This document shows, piece after piece, positions 30,848 through 60,041 of a stretch of 64,000 nucleotides of DNA. The translations under genes were made by a program, and so were the position numbers. How positions within the stretch are numbered: the stretch's first letter is position 1; the number at the start of each line of letters is the position of its first letter. Under the pieces are notes generated by a model, which searched no databases, was not told the DNA's origin, and saw only the letters and a list, made by a program, of their open reading frames with translations. The stretch lies in NCBI RefSeq assembly GCF_020076305.1, contig NZ_JAIQXE010000003.1, positions 496,001 to 560,000 of the forward strand, given 5' to 3'. This DNA comes from Flavihumibacter profundi. GTDB lineage: Bacteria > Bacteroidota > Bacteroidia > Chitinophagales > Chitinophagaceae.

Positions 30848-30877
30848 GTCCCGGTGCACGCGCATCGGGCTTTTTTT
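30848..30877 (-). terminator. Intrinsic terminator of the amine-catabolism operon
   Basis: An 8-base-pair stem CCCGGTGC/GCATCGGG (one G-T pair) at 30850-30869 with a 4-base loop, flanked by an A run on the left and seven T on the right, so it can act in both directions. It lies just after the amidohydrolase stop at 30891 and ends the ten-gene minus-strand operon. Confidence 0.75.
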
Positions 30878-30890
30878 AGGACTCCGCTGA

Positions 30891-32465
30891 TCAGGCAGAC
30901 CAGGCAATTTTTCCATCAACCCAGGTATTCACAACTTTGAGTTCCGGAATTTCATCAATAGGGGTAGACAGTGGGTCTTTTTCCAATTCAATGAAATCTG
31001 CAAGCATTCCTTCTTCCAGCTTCCCGAATTCCTTTACGCCACTAATTTTAGCAGCATTTCCTGTATATAGCTGTAATGCTTCACGGATGCTGATGGCTTC
31101 ACCGCCGGCAATCAGGTTACCTTGGTCGTCTTTACGGCTAACTGCAGCATACACACCTTTAAAGGGATTAAAATTATTGACTACAGGAGCATCTGAGGAC
31201 AAAGCAGCCAGGATCCCATGGTCAAGGACTGATTTTACCGGGTAGCACCTGCTTAGGTAATCTTCATCCAGATACCGTATAAAGTTCTTTCCCAGCTCAC
31301 TTAAAAAAATAGTTTGCATTGATGCGGATATGCCATTCCCGGCCATTTCCTGAAGATGTTTTTGTTCTGGCAGGCCAAGGTGCTCAATCCGTCGGATGCT
31401 GTTGGGAAAAAGGGCATGCATCTCCTTGTAAATATCCACTACAAATTCAATTGCGGCATCACCTATTGCATGGGTAGCAATGCCCAGGCCCTTTTCCAGG
31501 GCTAATTTGCAAAGTTGCCGGTACTGGCCGGCCACCAGTCGCAATACCCCTCTTTCTGTGCTGTTTTTATACGTTCTCTTTAAAGCTGCGGTTTTTCCGC
31601 TCAGCCCTCCGTCACTGAAGAATTTAACCGTATTCAAACGAAGGAAAGACGATTCGAAAAGCTCTGGCAATGGATAGGGCTCTTCACCTCCGTCGGGCAA
31701 CAATATAGGGATGGCGTTTAATCGAAAGCCTAATTCACCGGCTTCATTCATTTCTTTATATGCTTCCAGTAACAGGGGATCTACGGCAGGGTCAGTAGCT
31801 GCAGTTATACCATACCGGTACATCTCATTGCGCGCAGCCAGTACCATATGCTTTAACTGTTGCTTTGTATAAGGGGGAATATGATTGGCCACCAATCCCA
31901 GTGCAGTTTCAGATAAGATTCCATTAGGTTCGCCATCGTCCCCTAAATGCATCACACCGCCATCGGGGATTTTCGTAGCTGCATTTACTCCTGCAAATTG
32001 CAATGCTGCAGTATTTGCAACTGCAATATGCGCGCAGGTTCTGATTACATATACCGGCTTCCCGGGTACAATTTTGTCAAGGTCTTTTTTTTCTGGCAAC
32101 CTATTGTTGGTCCAGCCCGCCTCATTGAAACCTCTTGCTACAATCCATTCGAGATCAGGATACTTCCGGTCATAATCGCGTATCGTATCCAGCATCTCTT
32201 CCAGTGATGACGCGCCACGCAGGTCTAGCATATAAGTTTTTAGGTTACCCACTTTCCAGATATGAATATGGGTATCATTCAATCCGGGCATTATTGTCCT
32301 GCCATCAACATCAATTTGCAAAGTATTGCCATCAACCAGGGGTTGTAATTCATCATAACTGCCAATTGCCCTGATCAGGTTATTCTCTATGAGCAATGCA
32401 TTTCCCCCTTTCCGGAGGCCCTCCTGGAAAGACAATAACGCAGCATTATGGATCAGTGTTTTCAA
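30891..32465 (-). CDS. Amidohydrolase family protein, YtcJ-like
   Basis: A cytosolic metal-dependent hydrolase of 524 residues. The composite beta domain at both ends (MKTLIHNAALLSFQEG; MLADFIELEKDPLS, VVNTWVDGKIAW) and the metal motif GLNDTHIHIWK define the amidohydrolase_3/YtcJ group. Further histidines occur in IATHAIGDAAIEF and RRIEHLGLPEQ, and the terminal aspartate in ALSSDAPV. Substrates in this family are mostly unknown amides or cyclic amides. It is the last gene of the operon, overlapping the GABA-aminotransferase-like gene by 4 bases (ATGA), so it may release an amine from an acylated precursor (inference). Confidence 0.88.
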   Translation of the reverse strand: MKTLIHNAALLSFQEGLRKGGNALLIENNLIRAIGSYDELQPLVDGNTLQIDVDGRTIMPGLNDTHIHIWKVGNLKTYMLDLRGASSLEEMLDTIRDYDRKYPDLEWIVARGFNEAGWTNNRLPEKKDLDKIVPGKPVYVIRTCAHIAVANTAALQFAGVNAATKIPDGGVMHLGDDGEPNGILSETALGLVANHIPPYTKQQLKHMVLAARNEMYRYGITAATDPAVDPLLLEAYKEMNEAGELGFRLNAIPILLPDGGEEPYPLPELFESSFLRLNTVKFFSDGGLSGKTAALKRTYKNSTERGVLRLVAGQYRQLCKLALEKGLGIATHAIGDAAIEFVVDIYKEMHALFPNSIRRIEHLGLPEQKHLQEMAGNGISASMQTIFLSELGKNFIRYLDEDYLSRCYPVKSVLDHGILAALSSDAPVVNNFNPFKGVYAAVSRKDDQGNLIAGGEAISIREALQLYTGNAAKISGVKEFGKLEEGMLADFIELEKDPLSTPIDEIPELKVVNTWVDGKIAWSA

Positions 32466-33805
32466 TTTCTTTTTTGTTGTGCTCTTGCGATAGCTGATTC
32501 CAGAACAGCAAGTCCTTCTTTCAACTGCTCATCTGTTATTACTATAGGCGGGAGTAAGCGGATACAGTTGCTGTACAATCCGGCCCTTATTAGTATCAGG
32601 CCGTTATTTATGGCATCTTTCATCACCTCCATGGCTACATCCATATCTGGAGTTTTGGCATTCCGGTCCTTTACAAATTCCACCAGTTGCATCGCCCCAA
32701 CTCCTCTGGTATCACCAATGATTGGATATTTTTCTTTCCAGCCAGACATAGTAGTACTGATAATGCTGCCAACTTCACAGGCACGCTTTAAAAATGATTC
32801 GCTTTTCAGGATTTTAATGGCTTCAATAGCGGCCACACAGGCTACAGGGCTTCCACCGTATGTACCACCAATCCCGCCCAGGTGCGGGGCATCCATGATC
32901 TCTGCTTTCCCGGTTACGGCGCTGATTGGCATACCGGCGCCAATTGATTTGGCACTTACCACAATATCAGGAACAATACCGCTATGTTCAATTGCATAGA
33001 GCTTTCCCGTACGGCCTGCACCACATTGGATTTCATCCGCAATAAATACAATACCATACTGATCACAGATATCACGCAGTTTTTGCAGGTACTGCGCAGG
33101 GATTGGCAGGAACCCGCCTTCTCCCTGTACTGGTTCAATAATGATTGCTGCCAGTGATTCAGGATCAACCTGTGCAATCAGGGCACGTTCAAGGTTTTGG
33201 ATACAATGCGCAACATATTGTTCCTCGGTCATGCCGTCGGTTTTACGATACATATTGGGCGCCGGGATACGGTAGATATCCGGAACATAAGTTCCAAAGC
33301 CTTTTTTGAACAGGGCATACTTGCTTGTTAAACTAAGTGTAAGTAAAGTCCGGCCATGATAAGCACCTTCAAAACATAATACGGCATTCCGCCTGGTATG
33401 GTACTTGGCAATATTTACTGCATTTTCAACAGCTTCTGAACCGGAGTTTGCCAGCAAGGTTTTCTTGGGAAAATTTCCGGGGGTACTGCTATTGAGCAAT
33501 TCAGCCAGCTCGATATATGGCTCAATGGTAGTTACCAGTGAACAGGTATGAATGTATTTATCTACTTGTTCCTTGATTGCTCTTACAACGGCTTCGTTAC
33601 AGTGACCAACATTAATCATGCCTATACCGCCGGCAAAATCAATCAATTGGTTGCCATCAACATCCCAGACCAATGCTCCTTCAGCCCGCTCCACAACCAC
33701 TTCGGTTGATTTAGCCAGCCCACTGGGCAATGCCTGTTTTCTTCTCTCCAGGATAGATTGTCCTTTTGGTCCGGGTAATGCTGTTTTAAGTTGTATATAA
33801 TTCAT
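32462..33805 (-). CDS. gabT: Class-III aminotransferase, 4-aminobutyrate type (copy 1)
   Basis: PLP enzyme of 447 residues moving the terminal amino group of GABA or a similar omega-amine to 2-oxoglutarate. The start MNYIQLKT at 33805 is chosen over an upstream TTG. Motifs are LIDFAGGIGMINVGH, ANSGSEAVENAVNIAK, FEGAYHGRTLLTLSLT, EPVQGEGGFLPIP, FIADEIQCGAGRTGK (PLP aspartate) and VVSAKSIGAGMPISAV, where K is the Schiff-base lysine. It lies between GNAT (1-base gap) and amidohydrolase genes. A second, diverged copy is encoded at 37280-38596. Confidence 0.92.
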   Translation of the reverse strand: MNYIQLKTALPGPKGQSILERRKQALPSGLAKSTEVVVERAEGALVWDVDGNQLIDFAGGIGMINVGHCNEAVVRAIKEQVDKYIHTCSLVTTIEPYIELAELLNSSTPGNFPKKTLLANSGSEAVENAVNIAKYHTRRNAVLCFEGAYHGRTLLTLSLTSKYALFKKGFGTYVPDIYRIPAPNMYRKTDGMTEEQYVAHCIQNLERALIAQVDPESLAAIIIEPVQGEGGFLPIPAQYLQKLRDICDQYGIVFIADEIQCGAGRTGKLYAIEHSGIVPDIVVSAKSIGAGMPISAVTGKAEIMDAPHLGGIGGTYGGSPVACVAAIEAIKILKSESFLKRACEVGSIISTTMSGWKEKYPIIGDTRGVGAMQLVEFVKDRNAKTPDMDVAMEVMKDAINNGLILIRAGLYSNCIRLLPPIVITDEQLKEGLAVLESAIARAQQKRN

Positions 33806-33806
33806 A

Positions 33807-34466
33807 TTATATTGTTTTATCAATGTCAATTTTGATTAATACGCCATAGTTACCGCAGGCTGGATCATTAAGGTAATCCGGGATCAAAGCAATTGGTTCG
33901 AATCCAATTTTCATTTGCGCAGAAACGGTCGGGTCTGTCCTTTTCCCAGCCAGCAATTCCTGGTAAAACTGTTCACCACTCATCTGGTCACTAACTGCAC
34001 CGTATCCATTCATCATACCTACGGTGATCTGGCCTTTTAATCCAAGTTGGCGGGCAATTTCATGCCTTGCCCTGTATAATATACGGGCAAGTCCCCTTCC
34101 CCGGTAATCCGGATGCACACCAATATCGAGGCCATATAGCCAATCCCCTTCCGGGTCATGGTTGGTTAACCATCCGCCGGCAATGGTTTCCTTGAACGTA
34201 TGGTGATAATGGTCGAAATCAAATTTACTTCGCATAGTAGTGGTCATTGCAACTACTTTATCACCATCTTTTATCACCAGCTGGCCTTCGGGAAATAATT
34301 CAAGATGCCGAAGGTAATGTTCCGCCCTGATCAGTTCATCATCAGCAAGGGTTGGAAATACAATCCTTTGTAAAGCCTCCAGCTGGCCCGCATCTTCTGG
34401 CTGCATACTCTGCACCACAAGGCCATTGCCTATGTCTTTACGATAAAAATATTTTTTTGTTTCCAT
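33807..34466 (-). CDS. GNAT-family N-acetyltransferase
   Basis: A cytosolic protein of 219 residues. Acetyl-CoA-binding motif A is clear in DIGVHPDYRGRGLARILYRAR. Other parts are the N-terminal VVQSMQPEDAGQLEAL, the substrate-side GGWLTNHDPEGDWLYG and FYQELLAGKRTDPTV. The ATG at 34466 is preferred; the frame reaches a TTG at 34484 that would overlap the upstream stop. Its place in an amine-catabolism operon suggests acetylation of an amine substrate or intermediate, as polyamine acetyltransferases do, but the acceptor is unknown. Confidence 0.85.
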   Translation of the reverse strand: METKKYFYRKDIGNGLVVQSMQPEDAGQLEALQRIVFPTLADDELIRAEHYLRHLELFPEGQLVIKDGDKVVAMTTTMRSKFDFDHYHHTFKETIAGGWLTNHDPEGDWLYGLDIGVHPDYRGRGLARILYRARHEIARQLGLKGQITVGMMNGYGAVSDQMSGEQFYQELLAGKRTDPTVSAQMKIGFEPIALIPDYLNDPACGNYGVLIKIDIDKTI

Positions 34467-34476
34467 CAATTCATAT

Positions 34477-35841
34477 TTAAGCAATCATATAACCCATTAC
34501 AACATAGGCAATACAGGTGACCGTAAATGATATCAAGGCAAAAGGCAGTTGTGTGATGCCATGTTGGTAATTATTACATTCGGCGCCCTGGGCGGCAAGT
34601 ATTGTTGCATCGCTGTAAAAGCAGGCATGCGCGCCAAAAGTCCCGGCACTGATAACTGCACCAATACAAACCCATACATTACAGCCAAGGTCATGCGCTA
34701 ATGGTATAACAAGCGGAACAGCAATAGCGTAAAGTCCCCAGGAGTTACCCGTAGTAAAAGCAATCAATCCGAGTGACAGGAAAACCGCCAGTGGTAACCA
34801 GTTTTTATTTACTACTGGTTCTACTACACTGATCACATACTGTGTTAATCCCATTTCATCGCCTAAATCTTTAAGCAGGTAGGAAAAGAGCAGTAGTACC
34901 AATGCAAAAAGCATGCTTTTCATGCCTTCAATGCCTGACTCTGATAATTTTTTAAATGGTGCTACTTTTTTTATACTATAATAAATCAATGTAAACGCAA
35001 GGGCTATAATAATTCCTTTCAGCGCATCCAGGTCCATCAGTACCGTTGCGGTTATTAACACTAATACAGGAAGTACCAGGTACCAGATATTCCCTTTTAC
35101 TTTTTCATCAAAGGGTTCAACTTCCAGGGAAAATTCTTCTGAGTTATCGGGAATCAACTGTCCTGTAGTTAATGCCCGGTGATTGGCTGTTTTCATTTTC
35201 CCTATGATTGGCACTATGCCTAATATGACTAGTGGAACCAAAAGGTATTGCACCCAGCCATAAGAAATATAAGGTATGATACCCAGGTAAACCGAAATTC
35301 CTTTACCGGCAGGAGCCAGGCCATTCCCTTCCAGCAGTTTACTGATAAAAATTACCCAGGTTGATATAGGTACGATTACACAAATTGGAACTGCCGTTGA
35401 ACTCACAACAAATGCCAGCATCTCGCGCGAAACCTTGTAATGATCTGTCAGCTTTTTCATTGTGGTACCTGTGGTTAAAGCATTCAGGTAGTCGTCAACA
35501 AACATAAAAGATCCAAAAGCCCAGGTTGTCAGCAATGACCTTTCCCTGTTCTTTACAAAACGCAGCAGGTATTCACCAAAAGCAAGAACGCCCCCACTCC
35601 GGATCATTAACTGTATCAAGGCTCCATAAAGACTGCACACGATAATGACCCAAACCATCAGGTCATTTTGCATTACTTTGGTAAATGCAGCGATAATGGC
35701 ATTGAAAAAATCCCACTTCCCAACAATGATATAACCTGCAAGGCAACCAATAAGCAAAGGTTCCAGTGAAAGTTTGGTTTTGATTGCTATGGCTATTACA
35801 ATCAAAGGCGGCAGCAATGATATGATTCCGTAGTTTCCCAT
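34477..35841 (-). CDS. NhaC-family sodium/proton antiporter or sodium-coupled solute carrier
   Basis: A polytopic inner-membrane protein of 454 residues with about 11-12 helices. The family block FTTGNSWGLYAIAVPLVIPLAHDLG, the FMFVDDYLNALTTGTTMKKL segment and FGAHACFYSDATILAAQGA are characteristic of the NhaC/MleN ion-transporter superfamily. Some members carry out sodium/proton exchange, others organic-solute antiport. Within an operon for an amine or omega-amino acid it more plausibly moves the substrate or a product across the inner membrane (inference). It lies 3 bases after gabD copy 1 and 10 bases before the GNAT start. Confidence 0.88.
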   Translation of the reverse strand: MGNYGIISLLPPLIVIAIAIKTKLSLEPLLIGCLAGYIIVGKWDFFNAIIAAFTKVMQNDLMVWVIIVCSLYGALIQLMIRSGGVLAFGEYLLRFVKNRERSLLTTWAFGSFMFVDDYLNALTTGTTMKKLTDHYKVSREMLAFVVSSTAVPICVIVPISTWVIFISKLLEGNGLAPAGKGISVYLGIIPYISYGWVQYLLVPLVILGIVPIIGKMKTANHRALTTGQLIPDNSEEFSLEVEPFDEKVKGNIWYLVLPVLVLITATVLMDLDALKGIIIALAFTLIYYSIKKVAPFKKLSESGIEGMKSMLFALVLLLFSYLLKDLGDEMGLTQYVISVVEPVVNKNWLPLAVFLSLGLIAFTTGNSWGLYAIAVPLVIPLAHDLGCNVWVCIGAVISAGTFGAHACFYSDATILAAQGAECNNYQHGITQLPFALISFTVTCIAYVVMGYMIA

Positions 35842-35844
35842 AAT

Positions 35845-37275
35845 TTACAATCCGCCTATGCTGATTAGTTTTTTTTCCATGTACTCAAATAACCCTTCGC
35901 TGCCGCTTTCATGACCCTGTCCGCTGTACTTCCAACCGCCAAACGGGGATTCTGTGCCATGAGGCGCCCATTCATTAATACCAACCATACCGAATTCCAG
36001 TTGTTCGGAAACATGGATGGCGGTGTTTAAGTTATTGGTAAACAAATAAGCCGCTAATCCATATTCAGTATCATTGGCTTTTTTAATTGCATCTTCTGCA
36101 TCGGTAAATGAAAACAAGGGTAATATTGGCCCGAATATTTCATTTCTCGCTAATGTTGAGTCCTGGTCAAGGCCAGATACCACAGCGGGTTGTAGGAAAT
36201 ACCCATTTGGCTTGTCTGCCGGAATATTACCACCCGTTAAAATATTTGCCTGTTCCTGCCGGGTTTTTTCTAAAAGCTCCAGAACACTATCCCGTTGTTT
36301 TTTTGTAATTAACGGACCAACCTGTACACCCTCTTCAAATCCCTGACCCACCTTAATGGCTGCCACATAAGCTGTAACGGCTTCTGCAAACTGGTGATAA
36401 ATTTTATGGTGTACATAGAAGCGTTGGGGAGCGATACATACCTGGCCGTTATTACGGAATCGGGCAAGTGCGGCAGATTTTGCAACTGCAGTTACATCTA
36501 CGTCTTCGAAAATGAGTACTGGTGCATTACCGCCAAGTTCCAGGGCCAATTTTGTATGGGTCCTTGAGGCCCCGTCCATCAGGATTTTCCCAACCCTGGT
36601 GCTCCCGGTAAAGCTTATTTTTTTAAGCAGTGGATGATCAAGCATCGCCTGTCCTATAGAGGATGATTCGCCAGTCAGGACATTCAATACACCAGCTGGT
36701 AATCCGGATTGTTCAAGGGCCTTTGCCATATGATATGCAGACAAAGGCGTGCTTTCTGACGGCTTTGCAACAACAGTGCATCCCGCTGCCAGTGCGGCCG
36801 CCCAGGCACGTGCCGGATTGTAGGCGGGGAAATTCCAGGCAGTGATAACCCCAACAACACCCAGTGGCTGCCATATTACTGAACTTCTTTTATCAGTGCG
36901 GTTAGTTGGAATCACTTTCCCATACGCACGCTTACCTTCCTCTGCATACCATTCAAAAAGGTTCGCAGCGACAGTGAATTCTCCTCTTGCCTCGGCAAGT
37001 GGTTTACCACTTTCCAAAACCATATCCCGGGCAATTTCATCCAGGTTCTCTCTTAAATAATCAGCTGCCTTTTTCAGGATAGTTGCCCTGGTATAAGGTG
37101 TGGTTAATTTCCACTTCCGGAAGGCTTCCTGCGCGGCTTCAATAGCTATTATACAATCTTTATCATTACCATAACTAATGGTATGCAATACTTCCTCAGT
37201 GGCAGGATTAATAAGTTCATGGGTATGTCCATCGATTGCATTAACCCATTGGCCGTTTATAAATTGCTTGTTCAT
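35845..37275 (-). CDS. Succinate-semialdehyde-type aldehyde dehydrogenase (copy 1)
   Basis: NAD(P)-dependent aldehyde dehydrogenase of 476 residues; the start MNKQFINGQWV at 37275 is chosen because the 26 residues before it lack a family match. Visible motifs are WNFPAYNPARAWAAAL (cofactor), FTGSTRVGKILM (GxxxG), the general-base glutamate in LALELGGNAP, the catalytic cysteine in NNGQVCIAPQRF, EIFGPILPL and FGGWKYSGQGHESG. It probably oxidises succinate semialdehyde or another omega-aldehyde made by the neighbouring aminotransferases. Copy 2 lies at 38607-39968. Confidence 0.92.
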   Translation of the reverse strand: MNKQFINGQWVNAIDGHTHELINPATEEVLHTISYGNDKDCIIAIEAAQEAFRKWKLTTPYTRATILKKAADYLRENLDEIARDMVLESGKPLAEARGEFTVAANLFEWYAEEGKRAYGKVIPTNRTDKRSSVIWQPLGVVGVITAWNFPAYNPARAWAAALAAGCTVVAKPSESTPLSAYHMAKALEQSGLPAGVLNVLTGESSSIGQAMLDHPLLKKISFTGSTRVGKILMDGASRTHTKLALELGGNAPVLIFEDVDVTAVAKSAALARFRNNGQVCIAPQRFYVHHKIYHQFAEAVTAYVAAIKVGQGFEEGVQVGPLITKKQRDSVLELLEKTRQEQANILTGGNIPADKPNGYFLQPAVVSGLDQDSTLARNEIFGPILPLFSFTDAEDAIKKANDTEYGLAAYLFTNNLNTAIHVSEQLEFGMVGINEWAPHGTESPFGGWKYSGQGHESGSEGLFEYMEKKLISIGGL

Positions 37276-37279
37276 GTAA

Positions 37280-38596
37280 TTAATATTTTGAGGTAAGTGC
37301 AGCAAGCCCGGCTTCGATAATATCCAATCCTCTGTCCAGCAGGTTTTCTTCAATCACCAATGGACTCAATACCCTTATGATGTTTCCATTTACACCGGCA
37401 CTTATTACAATTAATCCATGTTCTGCGCAAAAAGCAATTAACTTTTTACAAAGCTCTGCATCCGGACGAAACGGATCCTGGTCCTTAACAAGCTCAAAGG
37501 CCATCATTGCCCCTAACCCGCGTACATCGCCTATTACCGGGAATTTTTTCTTCATGTCGTTGAATCGGTCGCGGACAACCTTTCCTACCTTTTCACCCAA
37601 TGCATTAATATTGATTTTCTCCATGTAATCAATCGTGGCGATAGCAGCCGCACAACAAACGGGGTTACCAGGGTAAGTGCCGCCAATGGTTGAAGGCTGG
37701 CAGGCATCCATTATTTCCGCCTTGCCAATCACGGCACCTATCGGCATCCCGCTACCCATGCTTTTGGCCCAGGTTGAGATATCAGGCACCACACCAAAAT
37801 GCTGGTAGGCAGCCCATTTACCAGTACGGCCAAACCCACTTTGCACTTCATCCAGGATAAGCAGTATGCCGTACTTGTCACATATTTTTCTAAGTCCATG
37901 TAAGTAAGGCTGCGGTATTACATTAAATCCGCCTTCGCCCTGCACAGGCTCAACTATAATAGCAGCAACCTGTCCGGCAGGAACATTAGTATGGAAAAAA
38001 TCTTCCAGCTCACGTAAATGGATATCTGAAAACTCATCCAGGTTCAAACCCGTTCCATAACGATAATAATCTGGAAACGGGATCCGGTACACTTCCGGGG
38101 AAAACGGTCCGCAGCCGATCTTGTATCCCACTTTTGAGGTGAGTGTCATTGCCATCATGGTGCGGCCGTGAAAAGCGCCGCCAAAGCATATAATGGCTTG
38201 GCGGCCTGTTGCCTGCCGCGCAATTTTTATAGCATTCTCCACACTTTCTGCACCCGAATTAGTAAGCATTACTTTAGTCTGCTCACCATGTGGAAACAGG
38301 TTGGCCAATTTCTCAGCCAGTTCCATATATAGTTCATAGGTGGCCACATTAAAGCTGCAATGTATCATTGTTGCAGCCTGGCGGGCAATGGCTTCCACTA
38401 CAGGCGGTGGACAATGGCCGGCATTTACCACACCAATACCACCGGCAAAGTCTATCATTTCTTTTCCATCAGCATCAGTGATAACTGCCCCTTTTGCACT
38501 TACTGCTGTTGATGGATTAAAAATTCCTATAGCGTTTGGTACAAACTTTCTTCTTCTCTGCAGCAATTCTGCTGACCTTTCTAAAATATCGTTCAT
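37280..38596 (-). CDS. Class-III aminotransferase, 4-aminobutyrate type (copy 2)
   Basis: A PLP aminotransferase of 438 residues, starting MNDILERSAELLQRRRKF at 38596. It has IDFAGGIGVVNAGH, TNSGAESVENAIKIAR, FGGAFHGRTMMAMTLT, EPVQGEGGFNVIP, LILDEVQSGFGRTGKW and the lysine loop STWAKSMGSGMPIGAVIG. It differs from copy 1 throughout while sharing the core (about the relation expected for old paralogues), so the two could take different omega-amines or opposite directions. The gene lies 4 bases before gabD copy 1 and 10 bases after gabD copy 2 in the operon. Confidence 0.92.
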   Translation of the reverse strand: MNDILERSAELLQRRRKFVPNAIGIFNPSTAVSAKGAVITDADGKEMIDFAGGIGVVNAGHCPPPVVEAIARQAATMIHCSFNVATYELYMELAEKLANLFPHGEQTKVMLTNSGAESVENAIKIARQATGRQAIICFGGAFHGRTMMAMTLTSKVGYKIGCGPFSPEVYRIPFPDYYRYGTGLNLDEFSDIHLRELEDFFHTNVPAGQVAAIIVEPVQGEGGFNVIPQPYLHGLRKICDKYGILLILDEVQSGFGRTGKWAAYQHFGVVPDISTWAKSMGSGMPIGAVIGKAEIMDACQPSTIGGTYPGNPVCCAAAIATIDYMEKININALGEKVGKVVRDRFNDMKKKFPVIGDVRGLGAMMAFELVKDQDPFRPDAELCKKLIAFCAEHGLIVISAGVNGNIIRVLSPLVIEENLLDRGLDIIEAGLAALTSKY

Positions 38597-38606
38597 GTCA
38601 TTTATT

Positions 38607-39968
38607 TTATAATTCTGCGGCAATTGTTTTCGCATTTACAAATTCGAGTATACCATGCCGGCCAAGCTCCCGGCCATATCCGGATTTCTTCACGCCACCA
38701 AAAGGCAGTCGCGGGTCTGATTTAACCAGCGAGTTAATAAATACAGCACCAGTTGTTACCTGCTTAGCGATGGCTATTGCCTTCCCAATATCTGAAGTCC
38801 ATACACTGCCACCAAGGCCGTATTGCGACTGGTTTGCAAGGGAAATTGCTTCCTGCTCATCATTTGCAGTAATTACAGCCGCCAATGGCCCGAATGTTTC
38901 TTCATCAAACGCTGGCATTCCGGGATGCACATTCAGCAAAATTGCAGGCGTGAAATTGCATCCATCCACCTGCCCGCCAAAATCGAGATGTGCACCTGCT
39001 TTTAGTGAAGCATTCAACTGCTCAGATAAATTTGCAGCCAGGTCGGGCCTGGCCATTGGTCCGGTAGTAATGCCAGCTTCAAATGGATTGCCCTGTTTAT
39101 ATCGCAGGATACCTTCGTGCAGGTAATGCATAAAATCATTCATGGCTTCCTTAAGCACTATAAACCTTTTGGATCCAATGCAGGACTGGCCCGCATTGAG
39201 CAACCTCGATTGCAATGCAACTGTTGCGGCTTTTTTTATATCAGCATCCGGCAATACGATCAGCGCGTCGGAACCTCCCAATTCAAGCAGTGATTTTTTA
39301 ATGTGCTTACCGGCAAGCGATGCCACGGAACGCCCCGCTCTTTCACTCCCGGTAAGTGTAACGGCCTGGACAATGTTCGAAGCAATTATCCTTTCCACGG
39401 CATCCGTATCAATAATTAGGGACTGGAATACACCATCCGGAGCCCCGGCCTGCTTAAAAATATCAGCTATTGCCAAAGAACAGCCACAAACATTCGGTGC
39501 ATGCTTCAGCAAGGTTACATTTCCTGCCATCAGCGTTGGTGCTGCATATCGGAATACCTGCCAGAATGGAAAATTCCAGGGCATTATTGCAAGCACTGCG
39601 CCTATTGGCTGGTAGGTTACAAAACTTTTATAGTAACCCGCATCCAGCAATTCATCCTGTAAAAAAGATGCTGCATTTTCCGCATAATATTCGCATACCC
39701 AGGCACATTTCTCCACTTCACCTTCAGCCTCTGCGAAAATCTTTCCCATTTCACGGGTAATCAGCTGCGCATATTGGTTTCTGTTATTACGAAGAATGGA
39801 TGCTGCATTTTTCAGTACAGTTGACCTTTCTTTATAACTTAACCGCTTCCATTTTTCATAACCGGATTCGGCCGAAACAAGGGCATTATTGAGTTGCGTT
39901 TCATCCATCAGGGGATACTCATTCACTAACTCCCTGTTAAAGGGGAATATTGATTGAAACAGCGCCAT
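38607..39968 (-). CDS. Succinate-semialdehyde-type aldehyde dehydrogenase (copy 2)
   Basis: Aldehyde dehydrogenase of 453 residues, resembling the shorter SSADH/YneI-type group. It has MPWNFPFWQVFRYAAPTL, LTGSERAGRSVAS, the glutamate in SLLELGGSDALIVL, the catalytic cysteine in NAGQSCIGSKRF, DEETFGPLAAV and LPFGGVKKSGYGREL. The start is close after the amine oxidase stop (1-base gap), which suggests translational coupling and that its aldehyde comes from the oxidase or from its products. It is clearly diverged from copy 1. Confidence 0.92.
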   Translation of the reverse strand: MALFQSIFPFNRELVNEYPLMDETQLNNALVSAESGYEKWKRLSYKERSTVLKNAASILRNNRNQYAQLITREMGKIFAEAEGEVEKCAWVCEYYAENAASFLQDELLDAGYYKSFVTYQPIGAVLAIMPWNFPFWQVFRYAAPTLMAGNVTLLKHAPNVCGCSLAIADIFKQAGAPDGVFQSLIIDTDAVERIIASNIVQAVTLTGSERAGRSVASLAGKHIKKSLLELGGSDALIVLPDADIKKAATVALQSRLLNAGQSCIGSKRFIVLKEAMNDFMHYLHEGILRYKQGNPFEAGITTGPMARPDLAANLSEQLNASLKAGAHLDFGGQVDGCNFTPAILLNVHPGMPAFDEETFGPLAAVITANDEQEAISLANQSQYGLGGSVWTSDIGKAIAIAKQVTTGAVFINSLVKSDPRLPFGGVKKSGYGRELGRHGILEFVNAKTIAAEL

Positions 39969-39969
39969 T

Positions 39970-41517
39970 TTAACTGGTTTTTGATTTTATTTTTTTCATA
40001 ACTGCCTCAGCAGCAATAGCGGCTGTTTTTGCTGCTCCATTCATATAACCCTGGAATTCAAGACTCACTTGTTCTCCTGCAAAAAAGATATTGCCAACAG
40101 GCTCTGCTTCCCAGCCAGCCAATGTAGACCATTGCCCCTTTTTCATAGCGCTATAGCCGGCTTTACTAAATGGGTTACCTGCCCAGCAGTACTTGATATT
40201 TTTCCCGTTGTAGGCCTTTTTTGCCCCGGGGTAAATTGTATCCAGGCCACCGGAGAAATTTATTTCCAGTTCTTTCATCGGGGTATCACTAACCATATCA
40301 CTGAACCTGCCACCACCGAACACCGTAAAACTGCCTTCCCGTTCAGACTGCAGGTTACTGCTGTCCCAACCACAACCAAAAGAAATATCGGTAAAAGTAT
40401 ACCCCTGCATTTTCTGGTCACGCCATGGCTTTTTATCCATTCCTAAAATAAGTTTACAGCTGTTCCCATAGCCCAGTTCATCAATACACTTTCGTTTTCC
40501 TGCAGGCATATTAACCTTCATTGGAATATTTCTAAGGATTGTAAATGGGATGGTTGAAATCACATAATCCGCCGTGATAGTCTGGTTTTTACCACCGGTA
40601 AAAAACTCCAGTTCATAACTTTTACCGTCACTGCCCGAATTAATAGCTGTTAGCCTGTGTGAAAATTTTATCTGTTCGGGCATTTTATTATACAAAGTAT
40701 CAGTCAGGTGCATAGCCCCGCCCTTTATCCTGAATACTTCATGGTCTTCACCAAACAATGAATACTTGCCTGTATCATTGGACGGCGCCTGGAACATGAT
40801 CAGGAAATTAATTGCAGATTGTTCAGTTATCTCCATACCATATTCACGGGTCAGCAATACATTGAGATAATTGTATAGCCATCCGGAAATTCCAATCGAC
40901 TGGAGATATTCTGAAATAGACATATCATCGAGTCGTTGAAAATCTGGAGCCGTGCGATAAGAAATATGTTCAGGCAGTGAGGTAATGTCTTTTACCATCT
41001 GTTTCACGTATGGTGTTAAAGCCTTTACCAGATCCTCCTCGGAAAATACTTTTCCATCAAAATAATAGGTCTGCTTTACAAATGGGTCCGTACGCAAATC
41101 AAGAAAAGAAAGGCCCAACTCTTCCACAAGTTTGATAATATCTGCATGAGATGTATCTACGAATTCACCACCCAGGTCGGAATAAATTTCCTTTCCGAAC
41201 ACCTCGTTCAGCGACCACATTCTTCCACCTGTACGATTACTGGCCTCATAAACATCAGCCAGTATACCATTTTTTCGTAACTGCCATGCAGCATTTAATC
41301 CCGCTATGCCCGCACCAATGATAGCGACCCGGGGCTTTTGATCAGCCTGCAAACAAGATGGCAGAAATGCCATCCCACCTGCAACTACAGCGGTTTGCTT
41401 CAGGAAATGCCGCCTGCTTTTTTGCCAGGCCTGAAATTCTCCTGCTGTAATGCCATCCTGGTCAAGGGAATTGATAAAGGCTCGTTTTAACAATTCTATT
41501 AACGGGTAATGTGCCAT
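39970..41517 (-). CDS. Tat-exported flavin monoamine oxidase family protein
   Basis: FAD-dependent amine oxidase of 515 residues that converts an amine to aldehyde, ammonia and hydrogen peroxide. A twin-arginine signal, SRRHFLKQTAVVAGG, sits near residues 34-48, followed by a lipobox-like LPSC, so export by Tat and possible lipidation are likely. The FAD dinucleotide fold is VAIIGAGIAGLNAAWQLRKNG, then the GRMWSL segment of amine oxidases, and the C-terminal FAD site FFAGEQVSLEFQGYMNGAAK. The active-site aromatic cage cannot be judged by eye. It lies between SusD and the dehydrogenase gene, which implies a periplasmic first step of amine breakdown. Confidence 0.9.
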   Translation of the reverse strand: MAHYPLIELLKRAFINSLDQDGITAGEFQAWQKSRRHFLKQTAVVAGGMAFLPSCLQADQKPRVAIIGAGIAGLNAAWQLRKNGILADVYEASNRTGGRMWSLNEVFGKEIYSDLGGEFVDTSHADIIKLVEELGLSFLDLRTDPFVKQTYYFDGKVFSEEDLVKALTPYVKQMVKDITSLPEHISYRTAPDFQRLDDMSISEYLQSIGISGWLYNYLNVLLTREYGMEITEQSAINFLIMFQAPSNDTGKYSLFGEDHEVFRIKGGAMHLTDTLYNKMPEQIKFSHRLTAINSGSDGKSYELEFFTGGKNQTITADYVISTIPFTILRNIPMKVNMPAGKRKCIDELGYGNSCKLILGMDKKPWRDQKMQGYTFTDISFGCGWDSSNLQSEREGSFTVFGGGRFSDMVSDTPMKELEINFSGGLDTIYPGAKKAYNGKNIKYCWAGNPFSKAGYSAMKKGQWSTLAGWEAEPVGNIFFAGEQVSLEFQGYMNGAAKTAAIAAEAVMKKIKSKTS

Positions 41518-41526
41518 AAAAATTAA

Positions 41527-42909
41527 TTAGAACCCCGGGTTCTGTTTTACCTGTTCTTTAGAAGCTATTAATTCACGCTGCGGAATCGGGAATACACCTT
41601 TTTCCTGGTCAACCCCTATTACATCATGGATCTTCTCCGTTCTGGCAAGATCAAAAAAACGATGCCCTTCAAAATTCAATTCAGCAAGCCTTTCATCTGC
41701 CACAAACTGCTGGAAAGCAGTTTCATTTTCTACATCTGCAGGCTTTAGTTCATTCATTCCCCTGTTCACCCTAAGCGTGTTTAATAAGGAAAGCCCACCA
41801 CCAGCCAGACCTTTTGCTTCAGCTGCAATCAGGTATAACTCGGCTATCCTAATAATGTAAGCCGGATTGTCCTTAGCTACTTCGCCACGGTATTTTTGGG
41901 TTCTTCCATCTGGTAGAATGCTGGGATCATTGTTTACAAAATCAACCAATTCGCTTCTTCTGTCGCCGGGCCTTGCCTCAAAGAAATTATGCAATCCTTC
42001 ACTGGCAATAAAAAGGATTTCCGACCGCAATGCATCTTCCCTCACATAAGTTGTTCCGTTATAGAAACTGGGGTTCTGTGAATCGAAGCTTAGTTCAAAA
42101 ATCGATTCTGAACTTAATCGACCAGAATAAATCTTAGTGAAATTATCTGCGTCCAGTAAGCTGAAACTGCCATCATCAATTACTTCCTGGGCAAGTGAAG
42201 CTGCCTGGGCTGTATTTTTCTCGTACAGGTAAACTCTTGCAAGTATTGACTTTGCGGCCAACAGGTTCATATATTTTGCATTAATCTCTGCATTGGAAAG
42301 TAGGCCAACCGCATCTGTCAGGTCTTTTATGATAGACGCATAAGTTTCAGCAACTGTACTGCGTGCAACTATATCATAGGGTCCCTGCACAGTAGTCACA
42401 ACAGGGATGCCAAATTCAGAAGCATTATTCCAATGGTAGCCGAACATCCTTAACAAATCAAAATGAATCATTCCACGAATGGCCATTGCCTCCCCTTTTA
42501 TACGCTTTCTTTCTTCTTCGGTGAGGTTAACGTCCTCTATTTTATCCGCAGCATCGATGATAGCGTTTGCATTGGTTATGCTTTTGTATAACGCTACATA
42601 TATCTGTTCAACATAAATGTTGGAAGAAGTTACAGCATGGTCAGCTATTTCATTCAGGGCCGGGTTATCATATCCGCCTGCTTTTGCCACATCACTGTTC
42701 AGGTCGGCAATCAGCGGATAATACCCACCATAATAATCCCTCTGCTGTAAAGTGCTGTAAAGGCCTATAAGCGCTGAACGAAGGCCATTTGCATCTTTGA
42801 AAACATCTTCACTGGCAACATCATTTGGAGAAACAACTTCCAGTTTCTGGCAGGCGAACATAGAAGTTAAAGCCAGGAAAAAAATTATACTTTTTATGGA
42901 AAATTTCAT
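41527..42909 (-). CDS. RagB/SusD-family outer-membrane lipoprotein
   Basis: A surface lipoprotein of 460 residues that captures the ligand for the partnered SusC. The start MKFSIKSIIFF at 42909 is preferred over a TTG nine bases upstream. The lipobox is SMFAC (Cys about residue 20), and the TPR-like start has SEDVFKDANGLRSALIGLY. Later SusD blocks are EERKRIKGEAMAIRGMIHFDLLRMFG, YIIRIAELYLIAAEA and the C-terminal LADERLAELNFEGHRFFDLAR. Partnered with SusC 18 bases upstream. Usually such pairs bind glycans; here the operon is for amine catabolism. Confidence 0.95.
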   Translation of the reverse strand: MKFSIKSIIFFLALTSMFACQKLEVVSPNDVASEDVFKDANGLRSALIGLYSTLQQRDYYGGYYPLIADLNSDVAKAGGYDNPALNEIADHAVTSSNIYVEQIYVALYKSITNANAIIDAADKIEDVNLTEEERKRIKGEAMAIRGMIHFDLLRMFGYHWNNASEFGIPVVTTVQGPYDIVARSTVAETYASIIKDLTDAVGLLSNAEINAKYMNLLAAKSILARVYLYEKNTAQAASLAQEVIDDGSFSLLDADNFTKIYSGRLSSESIFELSFDSQNPSFYNGTTYVREDALRSEILFIASEGLHNFFEARPGDRRSELVDFVNNDPSILPDGRTQKYRGEVAKDNPAYIIRIAELYLIAAEAKGLAGGGLSLLNTLRVNRGMNELKPADVENETAFQQFVADERLAELNFEGHRFFDLARTEKIHDVIGVDQEKGVFPIPQRELIASKEQVKQNPGF

Positions 42910-42927
42910 GGTTGACAATTTTTTGGA

Positions 42928-45900
42928 TTAGAAACTTGCTGTAAGTCCGAATGTGAATACCCTGGGTTGCGGATAGGCTGCATAATCAACACCAGCTGTG
43001 CGGTCGTTGCTGCCTCCCGTTGAACTTACTTCAGGATCAAAACCGCTATAGTTGGTAAATACAAACAGGTTCTGGACCTGTGCATATAAGCGCAGGTTCG
43101 CTATATTATGAAGTTTCTGTTTATTAAATGTATATCCCAGGTTCACTGTGCGGAAACGGAAGAAAGAGGCATTTTCCACAAACATCGATGAGTTTTCAAA
43201 GTAGTTTTTTTCTACAAATGCAAACCGGGGAACATCAGTTTTATCTCCTGGTTTGCGCCAGCGATCCAGCGAATGGGTGCTGTTATTGGCAAATACCTGG
43301 TCCAAGCCGCCGTCATTGCTGTATCCCAGGTTCTCATATACCGGCCTGATGAGGTTATATACCTCATTGCCAATGCTGAACTGGCAGGCAATCAGGAAAT
43401 CAAAATTGCCGTATTTGAAATTGTTGGTTAACCCTCCGTAATAGTCGGGCCGGGCCTTCCCGATAATCTGGGCGTCATTAAAATCAATTACACCGTCTTT
43501 ATTAACGTCATCAAACATAGCGTCTCCGGTCTGCTCATTTACCCCAAGGTATTTTACACCCCAGAATGTTCCGACTGATTCACCAACCTTCATGATATGC
43601 GTAGGAGCAATATCATTATATGCACTTACTAATTCACCGTCAACCGGCAGTTTTTTGATGGTGTTTTTCTGGTATGATATATTGAAATTGGTTGTCCAGC
43701 GGAATTTATTGTTCCAGATATTTTTACTATTGAGTGAAAATTCAAATCCCTTATCCTCCACTTCTCCACCATTGGTGGTCAATGTTGCAAAACCGGTTGT
43801 ACCTGCAATGGGTATATTGCTGAGCAGGTCTGTACGATTGGCTACATAGTATTCCATAGAACCACCAATAACACCGCCAAGGATTTCATAATCAGCACCA
43901 ATATTGAATGATTTATTTTTTTGCCAGGTTAGATTCGGATCGGCAATATTTCTCGGACGAAGCCCTGATTGCCCATCATAACGACCCGGTTGCCAGAAAG
44001 AAATATTCTGGAAGTCTCCAATTTCCTGGTCACCGGTATAACCATAACTTGCCCGCAGTTTAAGGGCAGTAAGCACTTTCGAGTTAGCCATGAATGCCTC
44101 ACGGTCAATATTCCAGCCTACACTTGCCGATGGGAAATACCCATACTGGTTCCCCTTTGAAAACCGGGAAGAACCATCAGCCCTGAAGGTTACACTGGCA
44201 AGGTATTTTCCATTATAATCGTAGTTCGCACGACCAAGGAAAGAATGTAATCGCCATCCGCTGCCAGTCTGTGTCGCACCTGTTATCAATGCCGCACTGG
44301 AAATATTGGTCAACCCGCTCCCTAAAGGGAAACCTTGTCCCGACATACTTGTACGTTCATTTTTTGATTCCTGCTGTGAAAAACCAGCCAGCAGGCCAAG
44401 GTTATGGTCCCCAAATGATTTCTGGTAGTTCAGTGTGTTTTCATTCAGCCAGGTAGTATTACGGAAGTTGCCATTAAATGCTTTCCCGCCAACTGCTTCT
44501 GCATCTGTGGTTAATGCAGACAGGAATAATTCATCCTCAACGGCACTATAATCGGTATTTAATGTTGTTTTGAATTTAAGGTCCGGAGTAATCTTATATT
44601 CTGCAAATACTGATCCCAGGAAACGGTAACTTGTAGTATAACCCTTTATTTCCTTTGCAGATTTTACAGGGTTATCACTTAACCAGTTTGCCTGGTAATC
44701 CTCGAATTTGGCGTAATTACCATTTTCATCATAAACAGGCATCAAAGGAGATGCACCAATCGCATTGGTAATAATTCCAGTGTAGGTATTATCATTAAAA
44801 CTGCGGTGGTTGTTGGTTTTAGAAACCGATATATTAGTGCCAATCAGGAATTTATCCGTTACGGCATGGTCAAGATTCAGTCGCGCATTCATCCTTTTGA
44901 AATAGTTCTCAATCACAATACCCTGCTGGTCGAAATAACCCCCACTCAGGTAAAAATGTGTTTTATCATTTCCGCCACGAAGGTTAAGTTCATAATTACC
45001 AATAGGTGCCGTACGCATTACTTCATCGAGCCATACGGTATTTACAGCACCCGGACCGGCTTTATAATGTAACGGATCGGTCAGAACGGAAGGATCAAAA
45101 TCAGGTCCGAATACTGAATTGTCGGCATTGTATTTTGCCAGGTCGTTAGCCCTGGCTTCTTCAACCATGGATACAAACTGGTCAGAATTCATAAAGTTTA
45201 TTTTCTTAGCCACCTGCTGCATGCCATAATAACTGTTGAAGCCAATTTGTGTTTTTCCTGATTTACCTTTTTTAGTAGTTATCAATACAACACCGTTTGC
45301 AGCGCGGGCGCCATAAATTGCCGCAGATGAAGCATCTTTCAATACTTCAATAGACTCAATATCATCCGGGTTAATGTCTGAAATTGAACTCAGGTTCTGG
45401 CCCTTACCAACCTCTTCCCCTGTTGTATTGAAAGAGGTAGATAATGCAGAATTACTTTCACTAAGCATCGGAATTCCATCAACTACATATAATGGGTTTT
45501 GCGCGCCGCGGATACTTACAAGCAAGCCGGCACCGGGAGTACCCGAAGGCGATGTCACATTTATTCCGGAAACCTTACCCTGTATGCTGCTGGCCAGGTT
45601 AGAAACAGGCTGGTCTTTGAAGTCCTTATTGCTGATGGAGGAAATCGCACCGGTCAGGTTTGATTTCCGCTGGGTTCCATAACCGACCACAACTACATCG
45701 CTTAATTGGCTCTTTGATTCCTGAAGAACAATGTCAACAATTGTTGATTGCCCGGAAAGCTGGACAGATTTTTTTGCAAACCCTACAGAAGAAACTTCCA
45801 GTGTTGCTGGCCCGGCCGGGACTGTTAGGGAAAAAGATCCATCCTCTGCTGAAGACACTCCTTTATTTGCCCCTTTTACCATAATAGAAGCACCAGAGAT

Positions 45901-46038
45901 GGCTTTTCCTTCCGCATCTTTTACGGTTCCCTTAACCTGGACCGTTTGCGCCAGAAGGAATCCCGGCAGGAAAATTAGCAGTGATAATGCTGCTGAAACT
46001 GATAATAATTTTCTCAGAAAGTAAATCATACAAGGCAT
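42928..46038 (-). CDS. SusC/RagA-family TonB-dependent outer-membrane transporter
   Basis: A 1036-residue TonB-linked channel. After the signal peptide (cleavage near LLAQ, residue 31) comes a carboxypeptidase-D-like domain (VKGTVKDAEGKAISGASIMVKG, residues 32-110). A plug with the SusC box DVVVVGYGTQRKSNLTGAI follows, then IQGKVSGINV and NPLYVVDGIPML. The large barrel ends in PRVFTFGLTASF. The first ATG (46038) lies 9 bases before a second ATG. It imports the ligand held by SusD. Its spacer upstream carries repeated TAAGTCAAA boxes shared with the divergent regulator. Confidence 0.95.
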   Translation of the reverse strand: MPCMIYFLRKLLSVSAALSLLIFLPGFLLAQTVQVKGTVKDAEGKAISGASIMVKGANKGVSSAEDGSFSLTVPAGPATLEVSSVGFAKKSVQLSGQSTIVDIVLQESKSQLSDVVVVGYGTQRKSNLTGAISSISNKDFKDQPVSNLASSIQGKVSGINVTSPSGTPGAGLLVSIRGAQNPLYVVDGIPMLSESNSALSTSFNTTGEEVGKGQNLSSISDINPDDIESIEVLKDASSAAIYGARAANGVVLITTKKGKSGKTQIGFNSYYGMQQVAKKINFMNSDQFVSMVEEARANDLAKYNADNSVFGPDFDPSVLTDPLHYKAGPGAVNTVWLDEVMRTAPIGNYELNLRGGNDKTHFYLSGGYFDQQGIVIENYFKRMNARLNLDHAVTDKFLIGTNISVSKTNNHRSFNDNTYTGIITNAIGASPLMPVYDENGNYAKFEDYQANWLSDNPVKSAKEIKGYTTSYRFLGSVFAEYKITPDLKFKTTLNTDYSAVEDELFLSALTTDAEAVGGKAFNGNFRNTTWLNENTLNYQKSFGDHNLGLLAGFSQQESKNERTSMSGQGFPLGSGLTNISSAALITGATQTGSGWRLHSFLGRANYDYNGKYLASVTFRADGSSRFSKGNQYGYFPSASVGWNIDREAFMANSKVLTALKLRASYGYTGDQEIGDFQNISFWQPGRYDGQSGLRPRNIADPNLTWQKNKSFNIGADYEILGGVIGGSMEYYVANRTDLLSNIPIAGTTGFATLTTNGGEVEDKGFEFSLNSKNIWNNKFRWTTNFNISYQKNTIKKLPVDGELVSAYNDIAPTHIMKVGESVGTFWGVKYLGVNEQTGDAMFDDVNKDGVIDFNDAQIIGKARPDYYGGLTNNFKYGNFDFLIACQFSIGNEVYNLIRPVYENLGYSNDGGLDQVFANNSTHSLDRWRKPGDKTDVPRFAFVEKNYFENSSMFVENASFFRFRTVNLGYTFNKQKLHNIANLRLYAQVQNLFVFTNYSGFDPEVSSTGGSNDRTAGVDYAAYPQPRVFTFGLTASF

Positions 46039-46106
46039 TTAGGTTGTTTGTGTAAATGAGCCATTTCACAAAAAGCAACTGTTGAGTTTGATCCTTTAAA
46101 AATGAA

Positions 46107-46224
46107 TAAGTCAAACCAGACAAAATCTAAGTCAAATTATTTTTTCTTATAAAATTAAAATGCTGATTATCAATATTTTAATTTTAGTCATTATTTAGTC
46201 GATATTTAAGTCAAAAGATTTGAC
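46107..46224. promoter_or_regulatory. Repeated TAAGTCAAA boxes and palindrome between SusC and regulator
   Basis: TAAGTCAAA occurs at 46107-46115, 46128-46136 (21 bases apart, two helical turns) and 46207-46215. AGTC also recurs at 46186, 46197 and 46209, at 11-12 base steps. The last box is half of a perfect palindrome GTCAAA-AGA-TTTGAC at 46210-46224, 11 bases before the regulator ATG. The layout fits a control region read by the product of 46236-47255 and governing both the operon and itself (inference). Confidence 0.5.
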
Positions 46225-46235
46225 CATTTTTACAT

Positions 46236-59393: not shown

Positions 59394-60041
59394 TCACTTG
59401 ATTGCTTTGACTGTATCCCTGGCAAGCGTAGAATCTGTTCTTTTGGTAGAATCCCTGGGGGCGAGTGCGCCAAATCCCTGCTTAGGTACCAGGACTTCGC
59501 CGGTTACCTGTTTAATGATCCACCAGTTAAAGGACTGATCGGCCTCGAGTCCATTACCAAATATGGTTTTATCGGGCTGGTGAATCTGTACCGGCTTATC
59601 TGTATAAAACTTCTGGGTATTCTGGTCCCACCATAATTCATCACTGCGCAGTGTGTCTTTCTTAATATTAAAAACAACAACACTATCGCGCAGGAAGACC
59701 TTCTGCTGCGTTTCCTTATAGCGGCCGAACTTTGCATTCAACTGGCTTTCAACTTTGAGACTGTCGTTATAAAAATCAACATGCAGCGTCTTTGGAAATT
59801 CAATATAGGGTGTATCGGTCTGGTACCTGTTCATAACAGGAGCGGTTAACCGCGCTTTCATCTTTCCGCCCTGGCTAAGGTAGCTTTCAATATTCCTGGC
59901 TTCTTCAACAGCTATCCTTTTGGTTGATAAAGCCTGCAATTCCTCATTGCTGTTTTCACAGGACATCAAAAAAAGGCAGCACATAATGGGTGCTGCCAAA
60001 AACAATCCTGATACTTTAATATAAGGAAATCTGTTAATCAT
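59394..60041 (-). CDS. lptC: LptC-type LPS export lipoprotein
   Basis: A protein of 215 residues; the ATG at 60041 is preferred to the TTG at 60056. A signal sequence ends with the lipobox LFLMSC, so the Bacteroidota version is a lipoprotein rather than a membrane-anchored one. The beta-jellyroll of LptC is seen in KARLTAPVMNRYQTDTPYIEFPKTLHVDFYNDS, QLNAKFGRYKETQQKVFLRDSVVVFN and DELWWDQNTQKFYTDKPVQI, the conserved LWWD segment. It bridges LPS from LptFG to LptA. The start overlaps the upstream OMP gene by 8 bases. Confidence 0.9.
   Translation of the reverse strand: MINRFPYIKVSGLFLAAPIMCCLFLMSCENSNEELQALSTKRIAVEEARNIESYLSQGGKMKARLTAPVMNRYQTDTPYIEFPKTLHVDFYNDSLKVESQLNAKFGRYKETQQKVFLRDSVVVFNIKKDTLRSDELWWDQNTQKFYTDKPVQIHQPDKTIFGNGLEADQSFNWWIIKQVTGEVLVPKQGFGALAPRDSTKRTDSTLARDTVKAIK

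Follow-up and report, generated by a model that had tools for sequence, protein, structure and literature searches.

Polysaccharide utilization loci of the Sus type are co-directional operons led by susC and susD, in which catabolic enzymes follow the pair and a conserved gene stands upstream; their regulators are of the SusR, hybrid two-component system (HTCS), or extracytoplasmic function (ECF) sigma/anti-sigma types, and a SusCD pair is, by default, usually taken to serve glycans. The stretch analyzed here, 64,000 nucleotides of the Flavihumibacter profundi contig NZ_JAIQXE010000003.1 (hereafter the window), carries an operon of the same layout with a different payload. Its ten minus-strand open reading frames (ORFs), at 30891-46038, encode in order SusC, SusD, a flavin amine oxidase (AO), an aldehyde dehydrogenase (ALDH1), a class-III aminotransferase (AT1), a second aldehyde dehydrogenase (ALDH2), an NhaC-type carrier, a GNAT N-acyltransferase (GNAT), a second class-III aminotransferase (AT2), and an amidohydrolase, and a gene divergent from susC (DIV) lies upstream. 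The payload is amine catabolism: no glycoside hydrolase, lyase, or other glycan-active enzyme was found among the ten genes (the flanking ORFs of the relatives were only partly scanned), and DIV belongs to no known family, unlike the SusR, HTCS, and ECF regulators. The operon is not a polysaccharide utilization locus, because the defining glycan enzyme is missing, but by analogy it may work like a Sus-type uptake-and-degradation locus in which amine enzymes replace the glycan enzymes.

The lack of a glycoside hydrolase, which the original prediction had considered unusual for a SusCD locus, holds for the ten genes; its novelty does not, because SusCD pairs with bound oligopeptides, RagAB among them, are described in a passage of PMC7782687, and a non-glycan SusCD is therefore not new in itself. 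The present operon differs from RagAB-type pairs in that omega-amino-acid enzymes follow the pair, with no peptidase among them. With the Puu/Gab routes of Escherichia coli it shares an aldehyde dehydrogenase, a gamma-aminobutyrate (GABA) transaminase of the PuuE/GabT kind, and enzymes of the succinate-semialdehyde dehydrogenase (SSADH) type, as well as N-acyl protection if the GNAT provides it. It differs from them in lacking gamma-glutamyl-putrescine synthetase and the PuuD hydrolase (the rest of the genome was not searched for them), in having the GNAT and the amidohydrolase instead, and in adding an outer-membrane SusCD port and an exported oxidase of the monoamine oxidase (MAO) type. No SusCD-led amine operon turned up in searches of the open-access literature, which is not proof of absence from print. 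New here are DIV, a set of TTTGACTTA repeats, and a related gene core in another class of the phylum beside agmatine-type genes.

The explanation that we prefer, and regard as probable, is a SusCD operon dedicated to the use of an amine or omega-amino compound, with a GABA-shunt-type pathway at its end and a private regulator. It builds on the gene content, the synteny, the exclusivity of the SusD lineage in the genomes sampled, the conservation of residues, and the co-occurrence of DIV with the repeats, all of which are established.

Conservation of the operon across genomes

Named genome contigs were scanned with a three-row GNAT alignment through two short peptide patterns, which makes the yield a lower bound; of the 21 loci obtained, L047 was dropped (38 residues matched) and 20 were counted. 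The gene order of the window, for which a search across other genomes had been proposed in the original prediction, recurs in all 20 of these further GNAT-anchored loci, although the ten genes are not all conserved with it. AT1, ALDH2, the NhaC-type carrier, the GNAT (by selection), and AT2 are present in 20/20, SusC and SusD in 19, AO in 19, the amidohydrolase in 17, and ALDH1 in only 4. The single locus without SusCD (L034) begins at a contig end, and another contig of the same genome ends with DIV-susC-susD. The amidohydrolase is missing from L045 over 7.5 kb, while L043 and L044 stop 613 and 191 bases past AT2. At the usual place of the amidohydrolase after AT2, L045 has 1.2 kb without an ORF of 90 amino acids (L045:12023-13232), with short repeats visible by eye. 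AO is missing from L042, and also from L079, a divergent form of the operon in a genome of the window's family (G070), which has ALDH1 and, elsewhere in the genome, an AO-like gene of 41% identity. An obligate pairing of AO with ALDH1 was considered and rejected, as 15 of the 19 AO loci have no ALDH1 and L079 has ALDH1 without AO.

The titles of the loci name Foetidibacter, Puia, and Mucilaginibacter, unclassified Chitinophagaceae, Chitinophagales, Sphingobacteriales, and Bacteroidetes, and one uncultured bacterium; one locus titled Beijerinckiaceae is taken to be wrongly labeled. Two genomes of the window's own genus gave no AO match at E 1e-50, so the distribution of the operon is patchy. 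Among 395 genomes (395 species) of the host's class, GNAT matches occur in 118 at E 1e-20 and exceed 190 bits in five, namely three carriers of the operon, G177, and G384. The GNAT is homologous to part of ORFs of about 500 amino acids that are common in the class and that we take to be GNAT-nitrilase fusions; a literature search turned up no paper on such a fusion. L027, L029, L030, L033, L041, and L079 have a second small GNAT next to AT2 (two of the six were scanned and the others read by eye).

When the GNAT search was widened to the phylum, to one order, and to one family, it gained a single genus from outside the class. In a tree of ALDH2, GNAT, and AT2 rooted on this other-class core, G070 falls outside all other operons with a support of 1.0, and L042 branches next with a support of only 0.51. 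Such a topology fits, without proving, a stepwise assembly in which a cytosolic core would have been joined by SusCD with AT1 and the amidohydrolase and then by AO with DIV and the repeats.

A SusD lineage exclusive to the operon

The SusC protein matched TIGR04056, TIGR04057, PF07715, and PF13715, which corresponds to a barrel with its plug and a carboxypeptidase-regulatory-like domain. The susD gene lies directly downstream of susC after a gap of 9 to 18 bases, and one cysteine near the N terminus of the protein is invariant in 12/12 aligned sequences. When twelve operon SusDs were searched against the 395 class genomes, with at most four candidates scored per genome, the lineage exceeded 700 bits in three genomes (G000, G257, and G070), all of which carry the operon. 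The next best match reached 289 bits, and the three next-best SusDs that were inspected sit in other SusCD pairs. Conservation of the pair without the amine genes had been named at the outset as the pattern that would speak against a link with amines; in this sample the lineage occurs only in carriers, an outcome in favor of the original prediction.

Catabolic enzymes and carrier

The best solved relative of AT1 is PuuE and that of AT2 is E. coli GabT. The residues R158, E234, and R421 of AT1 and R160, E237, and R424 of AT2 are present in 21/21 sequences each and align with GabT R141, E211, and R398, functional residues of GABA transaminase; the lysine that binds pyridoxal phosphate is likewise kept in 21/21 of each. 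In ALDH2, the residues R182 and R300, which we take to be the carboxylate-binding arginine pair of SSADH, and C306, presumably the catalytic cysteine, are found in 21/21 sequences. A third contact position is serine in the aligned SSADHs and histidine in all 20 sequences that cover it.

The structural model of AO (pLDDT 85, built from 18 sequences) retrieved monoamine oxidase A first in Foldseek, followed by bacterial monoamine oxidase, putrescine oxidase, and cyclohexylamine oxidase, with L-amino-acid oxidases lower, from rank 39; the family profile also ranks monoamine oxidase A first. AO residues K355, Y455, and Y491 align with MAO-B K296, Y398, and Y435 and are invariant in 20/20 sequences, and we take them to be the flavin-site lysine and the two-tyrosine cage. 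AO thus resembles bacterial MAO-type oxidases and putrescine oxidase in its fold and in these sites; it differs from them in its twin-arginine motif (kept in 19/20, with RC in the remaining one), in having glycine, alanine, or serine and in no case cysteine (20/20) at the position of the MAO cysteine that holds flavin adenine dinucleotide (FAD) covalently, and in an identity of 18-22% to the structures listed. On this modeled fold and alignment, AO is read as an oxidase of amines rather than of amino acids. Other AO-like genes were detected in the window's family in 11/14 matching genomes (272-388 bits), and none had operon genes nearby in the stretches fetched, two of which were on short contigs (3.8 and 7.9 kb). 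One of them (L017) adjoins an agmatine deiminase gene, which alone proves little.

The metal site of the amidohydrolase (HxH, a lysine, two histidines, and an aspartate) is kept at six positions in 18/18 sequences, and no signal peptide was seen by eye at its N terminus, with 8/17 relatives inspected. According to a preprint (PMC13081902), taurine-conjugated bile acids and other N-acyl taurines are hydrolyzed by a metal-dependent enzyme that aligns with the YtcJ family.

The sole inner-membrane carrier of the operon is of the NhaC type, which presumably moves small solutes. The carriers of the window and L028 are 76% identical to each other and about 50% identical to those of the other 19 loci, an apparent in-place exchange of the carrier type.

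The divergent gene and its repeats

DIV was found in 18 of the 19 carrier genomes searched, the exception being L042, which also lacks AO. This count leaves out L028 and L029; on the L029 contig, the fetched stretch ends in a DIV fragment next to susC. Two of the 395 class genomes encode DIV (G000 and G257), both of them carriers, and G070, whose operon is without AO, is also without DIV; there, a gene for an Lrp/AsnC-type regulator lies directly upstream of susC instead. DIV is divergent from susC in 16/18 genomes, while the other two gave short fetched stretches that show no susC and probably reach a contig end. Pfam, the PDB, NCBIfam, and PHROGs yielded no convincing match, and the few weak ones differ between members. 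Among 17 sequences, 52 of the 72 positions in the region 203-274 are invariant.

An alignment of the DIV-susC intergenic regions from 17 loci spans about 120 columns. On the susC strand, these regions contain 18 exact copies of TTTGACTTA, compared with a shuffle mean of 0.085 (maximum 2, 200 shuffles), and 39 copies with one mismatch allowed, compared with a mean of 3.6 (maximum 9); the latter include at least one copy in 17/17 regions, and the other strand has 3. Three of the 17 regions have no exact copy and two are untrimmed at the susC start, and the counts come from related loci, so that they are not independent events. In both DIV-less carrier loci (135 and 600 bases), no copy with up to one mismatch was found on the susC strand upstream of susC. 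In the window, two exact copies lie at a spacing of 21 bases, and a weaker one is visible by eye between them; with up to three mismatches allowed, the genome has this triple pattern only once. Judging by co-occurrence and placement, DIV probably responds to the ligand and regulates the operon through the repeats upstream of susC; alternatively, the repeats may form part of the promoter.

Substrate and proposed pathway

In another class of the phylum, three genomes, all from a single genus, have homologues of ALDH2, the NhaC-type carrier, and the GNAT together, with AT2 also present in the two whose contig continues; no SusCD was found near this core in the stretches fetched. The core is divergent from agmatine-deiminase-like and N-carbamoylputrescine-amidase-like genes. 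In G177 (L080, G177:C319), an AT2-GNAT pair adjoins a gene resembling sarcosine/dimethylglycine dehydrogenase (FAD and GcvT domains), here in two ORFs; another GNAT of this genome has an amidohydrolase homologue (31% identity) as its neighbor. The Lrp/AsnC-type gene of G070 fits amino-compound catabolism. Taken together, these genomic contexts favor, but do not prove, GABA/putrescine-family chemistry, and the likeliest ligands are compounds of the putrescine/agmatine/GABA family or N-acyl conjugates of these. A polymer is disfavored as the ligand, because the conserved genes include no predicted depolymerase or peptidase and the carrier is of a small-solute type.

We infer the ligand, the direction of the carrier, the order of steps, the role of the GNAT, and the function of the regulator as follows. 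SusCD would bring the ligand into the periplasm, where, at most loci, the exported AO would oxidize primary amines. Either the ligand itself or the product of its periplasmic oxidation would then enter the cytosol through the NhaC-type carrier. At most loci a cytosolic amidohydrolase would strip off an acyl group. AT1 and AT2, of the GABA-transaminase type, would pass the amino group or groups to 2-oxoglutarate, and the dicarboxylate that ALDH2 would form from the semialdehyde, succinate or the homologous C5 acid, would enter the tricarboxylic acid cycle. The GNAT probably acylates the free amine of an intermediate in a protect-and-release scheme, as gamma-glutamylation does in E. coli Puu, and DIV would read the ligand and act on the repeat array. 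A more specific proposal, which we hold only tentatively, is that SusCD is a port for small amines or omega-amino compounds and that an undescribed regulator family senses the ligand or a metabolite and binds the phased TTTGACTTA repeats; the port is suggested by the lack of a conserved, predicted periplasmic depolymerizing enzyme together with a carrier type thought to move small solutes.

Several observations weigh against the preferred explanation. In phmmer, 7eme, a putative L-amino-acid oxidase, is the single best match of AO and narrowly outscores monoamine oxidase A, and this leaves room for an amino-acid substrate. Neither AO, absent from L042 and L079, nor the amidohydrolase, absent from L045, is strictly tied to the core. 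AT1 (503.7 bits) and AT2 (498.6 bits) miss the TIGR00700 cut-off of 506.65 by 3 and 8 bits, and ALDH2 scores 491 bits for TIGR01780 against a cut-off of 646. The family searches recognized no DNA-binding domain in DIV, and its single-sequence model (pLDDT 33) is uninformative. The agmatine-type neighbors come from one genus, 114 genomes of its order gave only the same three, and the neighbors score below curated cut-offs: 193 and 197 bits against 382 and 483 for the deiminase-like protein (one scanned), and 311 and 315 bits against 410 for the amidase-like proteins (two scanned). Finally, a free small amine would be an unusual SusCD cargo, given that one studied pair has a lower size limit in vitro at a fructo-oligosaccharide with a degree of polymerization of 5 (PMC7782687).

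Set against these points, the tie of the SusCD system to amine chemistry is supported by the SusD lineage, the gene order, and the residues kept in 21/21 sequences; the nitrogenous ligand to which the system was held to be devoted is still putative. Periplasmic deamination, also part of the original prediction, is favored by an MAO-like AO with a twin-arginine signal but is not shared by the two carrier loci that lack the enzyme; cytosolic conversion toward succinate agrees with the GABA-transaminase- and SSADH-type residues, but the enzymes fall under their closest curated cut-offs.

Scavenging of oligopeptides or N-acyl amino acids is possible but doubtful. SusCD would then import conjugates of an omega-amino acid (beta-alanine or GABA) in a RagAB-like manner, and the amidohydrolase would free the omega-amino acid, as the published oligopeptide-bound pairs (a passage of PMC7782687) and the cleavage of N-acyl taurines by the YtcJ-aligned enzyme (a passage of the preprint PMC13081902) would allow. 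Yet no peptidase was found in the ten genes of the window or the conserved genes of its relatives (where most other ORFs are unscanned), and the amidohydrolase shows no signal peptide in the relatives inspected and is absent near AT2 in L045.

A route for C5 compounds, with a lysine-, cadaverine-, or 5-aminovalerate-type ligand and glutarate as the end product of the same enzyme classes, is unlikely. The chain length is left open by the scores of both aminotransferases and both dehydrogenases, which lie under the best NCBIfam cut-offs, and the GabT and SSADH families accept C5 homologues; however, AT1 comes within 3 bits of the GABA-transaminase cut-off, the nearest solved relative of AT2 is GabT, and the main neighboring pathway hint is agmatine/putrescine-like.

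Amine detoxification or nitrogen salvage, rather than carbon catabolism, appears quite improbable. Acetylation by a GNAT and amine oxidation are classic detoxification steps, and AO and the GNAT would here neutralize toxic amines while the transaminases recycle nitrogen, but SusCD-led uptake followed by a transaminase-dehydrogenase route would be the layout of a nutrient system, and two carrier loci do without AO. An ordinary glycan SusCD lying by chance before an unrelated amine operon is rejected despite the abundance of such genes (11 SusD-family matches in the window's genome), since the same lineage leads 19/20 loci, the 20th genome has the pair at another contig end, and the search of the 395 class genomes, with at most four candidates scored in each, turned up the lineage in no non-carrier.

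Operon boundaries and surroundings

The ten ORFs are located where the original prediction had placed them, and profile matches confirmed the families that it had named (Table 1). Intergenic gaps measure -74 to 9 bases with mechanical start codons and -4 to 18 bases with internal ATG starts where present, which bears out the tight run described before (gaps of -4 to about 18); the likely starts of AT1 and ALDH2 are internal ATGs 39 and 78 bases downstream, respectively. The predicted terminator also finds its counterpart in a stem-loop just past the amidohydrolase gene, which the scan called on the plus strand only and whose minus-strand tail, ACTTTTAATTTTTT, was read by eye. The interval first proposed covers the ten ORFs and omits DIV and the intergenic region beside it. 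The GC content is 44.1% in the operon and 41.7 and 42.0% in its flanks. A sigma-70 promoter scan found 38 matches against 36.3 expected, no promoter was assigned from the Bacteroidota consensus given in a passage of PMC9723704, and Rfam and tRNA scans returned nothing informative.

Table 1. Features of the operon and its upstream region (window coordinates)
Feature	Position	Strand	Evidence or remark
susC: TonB-dependent outer-membrane barrel	42928..46038	-	TIGR04056, 863 bits (cut-off 368)
susD: surface lipoprotein lid, operon-exclusive lineage	41527..42918	-	PF14322, PF07980
AO: flavin amine oxidase, monoamine-oxidase type, twin-arginine signal	39970..41517	-	PF01593
ALDH1: aldehyde dehydrogenase 1, optional	38607..39968	-	Best NCBIfam NF006915, 484 bits (cut-off 730)
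AT1: class-III aminotransferase, PuuE/GABA-transaminase type	37280..38635	-	TIGR00700, 503.7 bits (cut-off 506.65)
ALDH2: aldehyde dehydrogenase, SSADH type	35845..37353	-	Nearest solved chains are SSADHs
NhaC-type inner-membrane carrier	34477..35841	-	PF03553 Na_H_antiporter
GNAT N-acyltransferase	33807..34484	-	PF00583
AT2: class-III aminotransferase, GabT type	32462..33829	-	Best solved relative E. coli GabT
YtcJ-like amidohydrolase (Amidohydro_3)	30891..32465	-	PF07969, 283 bits
Stem-loop, probable terminator	30850..30869	.	Called on + strand; - strand T-rich tail by eye
DIV: divergent orphan gene, proposed dedicated regulator	46236..47255	+	Co-occurrence with carriers; no convincing family
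DIV-susC intergenic region, proposed operator	46039..46235	-	TTTGACTTA at 46207-46215, 46128-46136, 46107-46115

Farther out, the window contains a DUF5777 beta-barrel gene (51509-52486), beyond which lie genes for a 4Fe-4S dicluster protein (53965-54897) and an NrfD-like membrane protein (54909-56228), and an ORF of 453 amino acids (60034-61395) with no Pfam match at E 1e-5. A large alpha-L-rhamnosidase gene is located at 261-3278, 28 kb from the operon.

Implications

If the preferred explanation is true, some SusCD genes of the Bacteroidota are importers of nitrogen compounds, and DIV represents a regulator family not described before, whose repeat array is an operator open to testing. The conserved SusCD lineage would also be a clean case in which to probe how small a SusCD cargo can be; should a small amine be the ligand, it would break the pattern published for one studied pair, whose lower cargo limit in vitro is near five sugars (PMC7782687).

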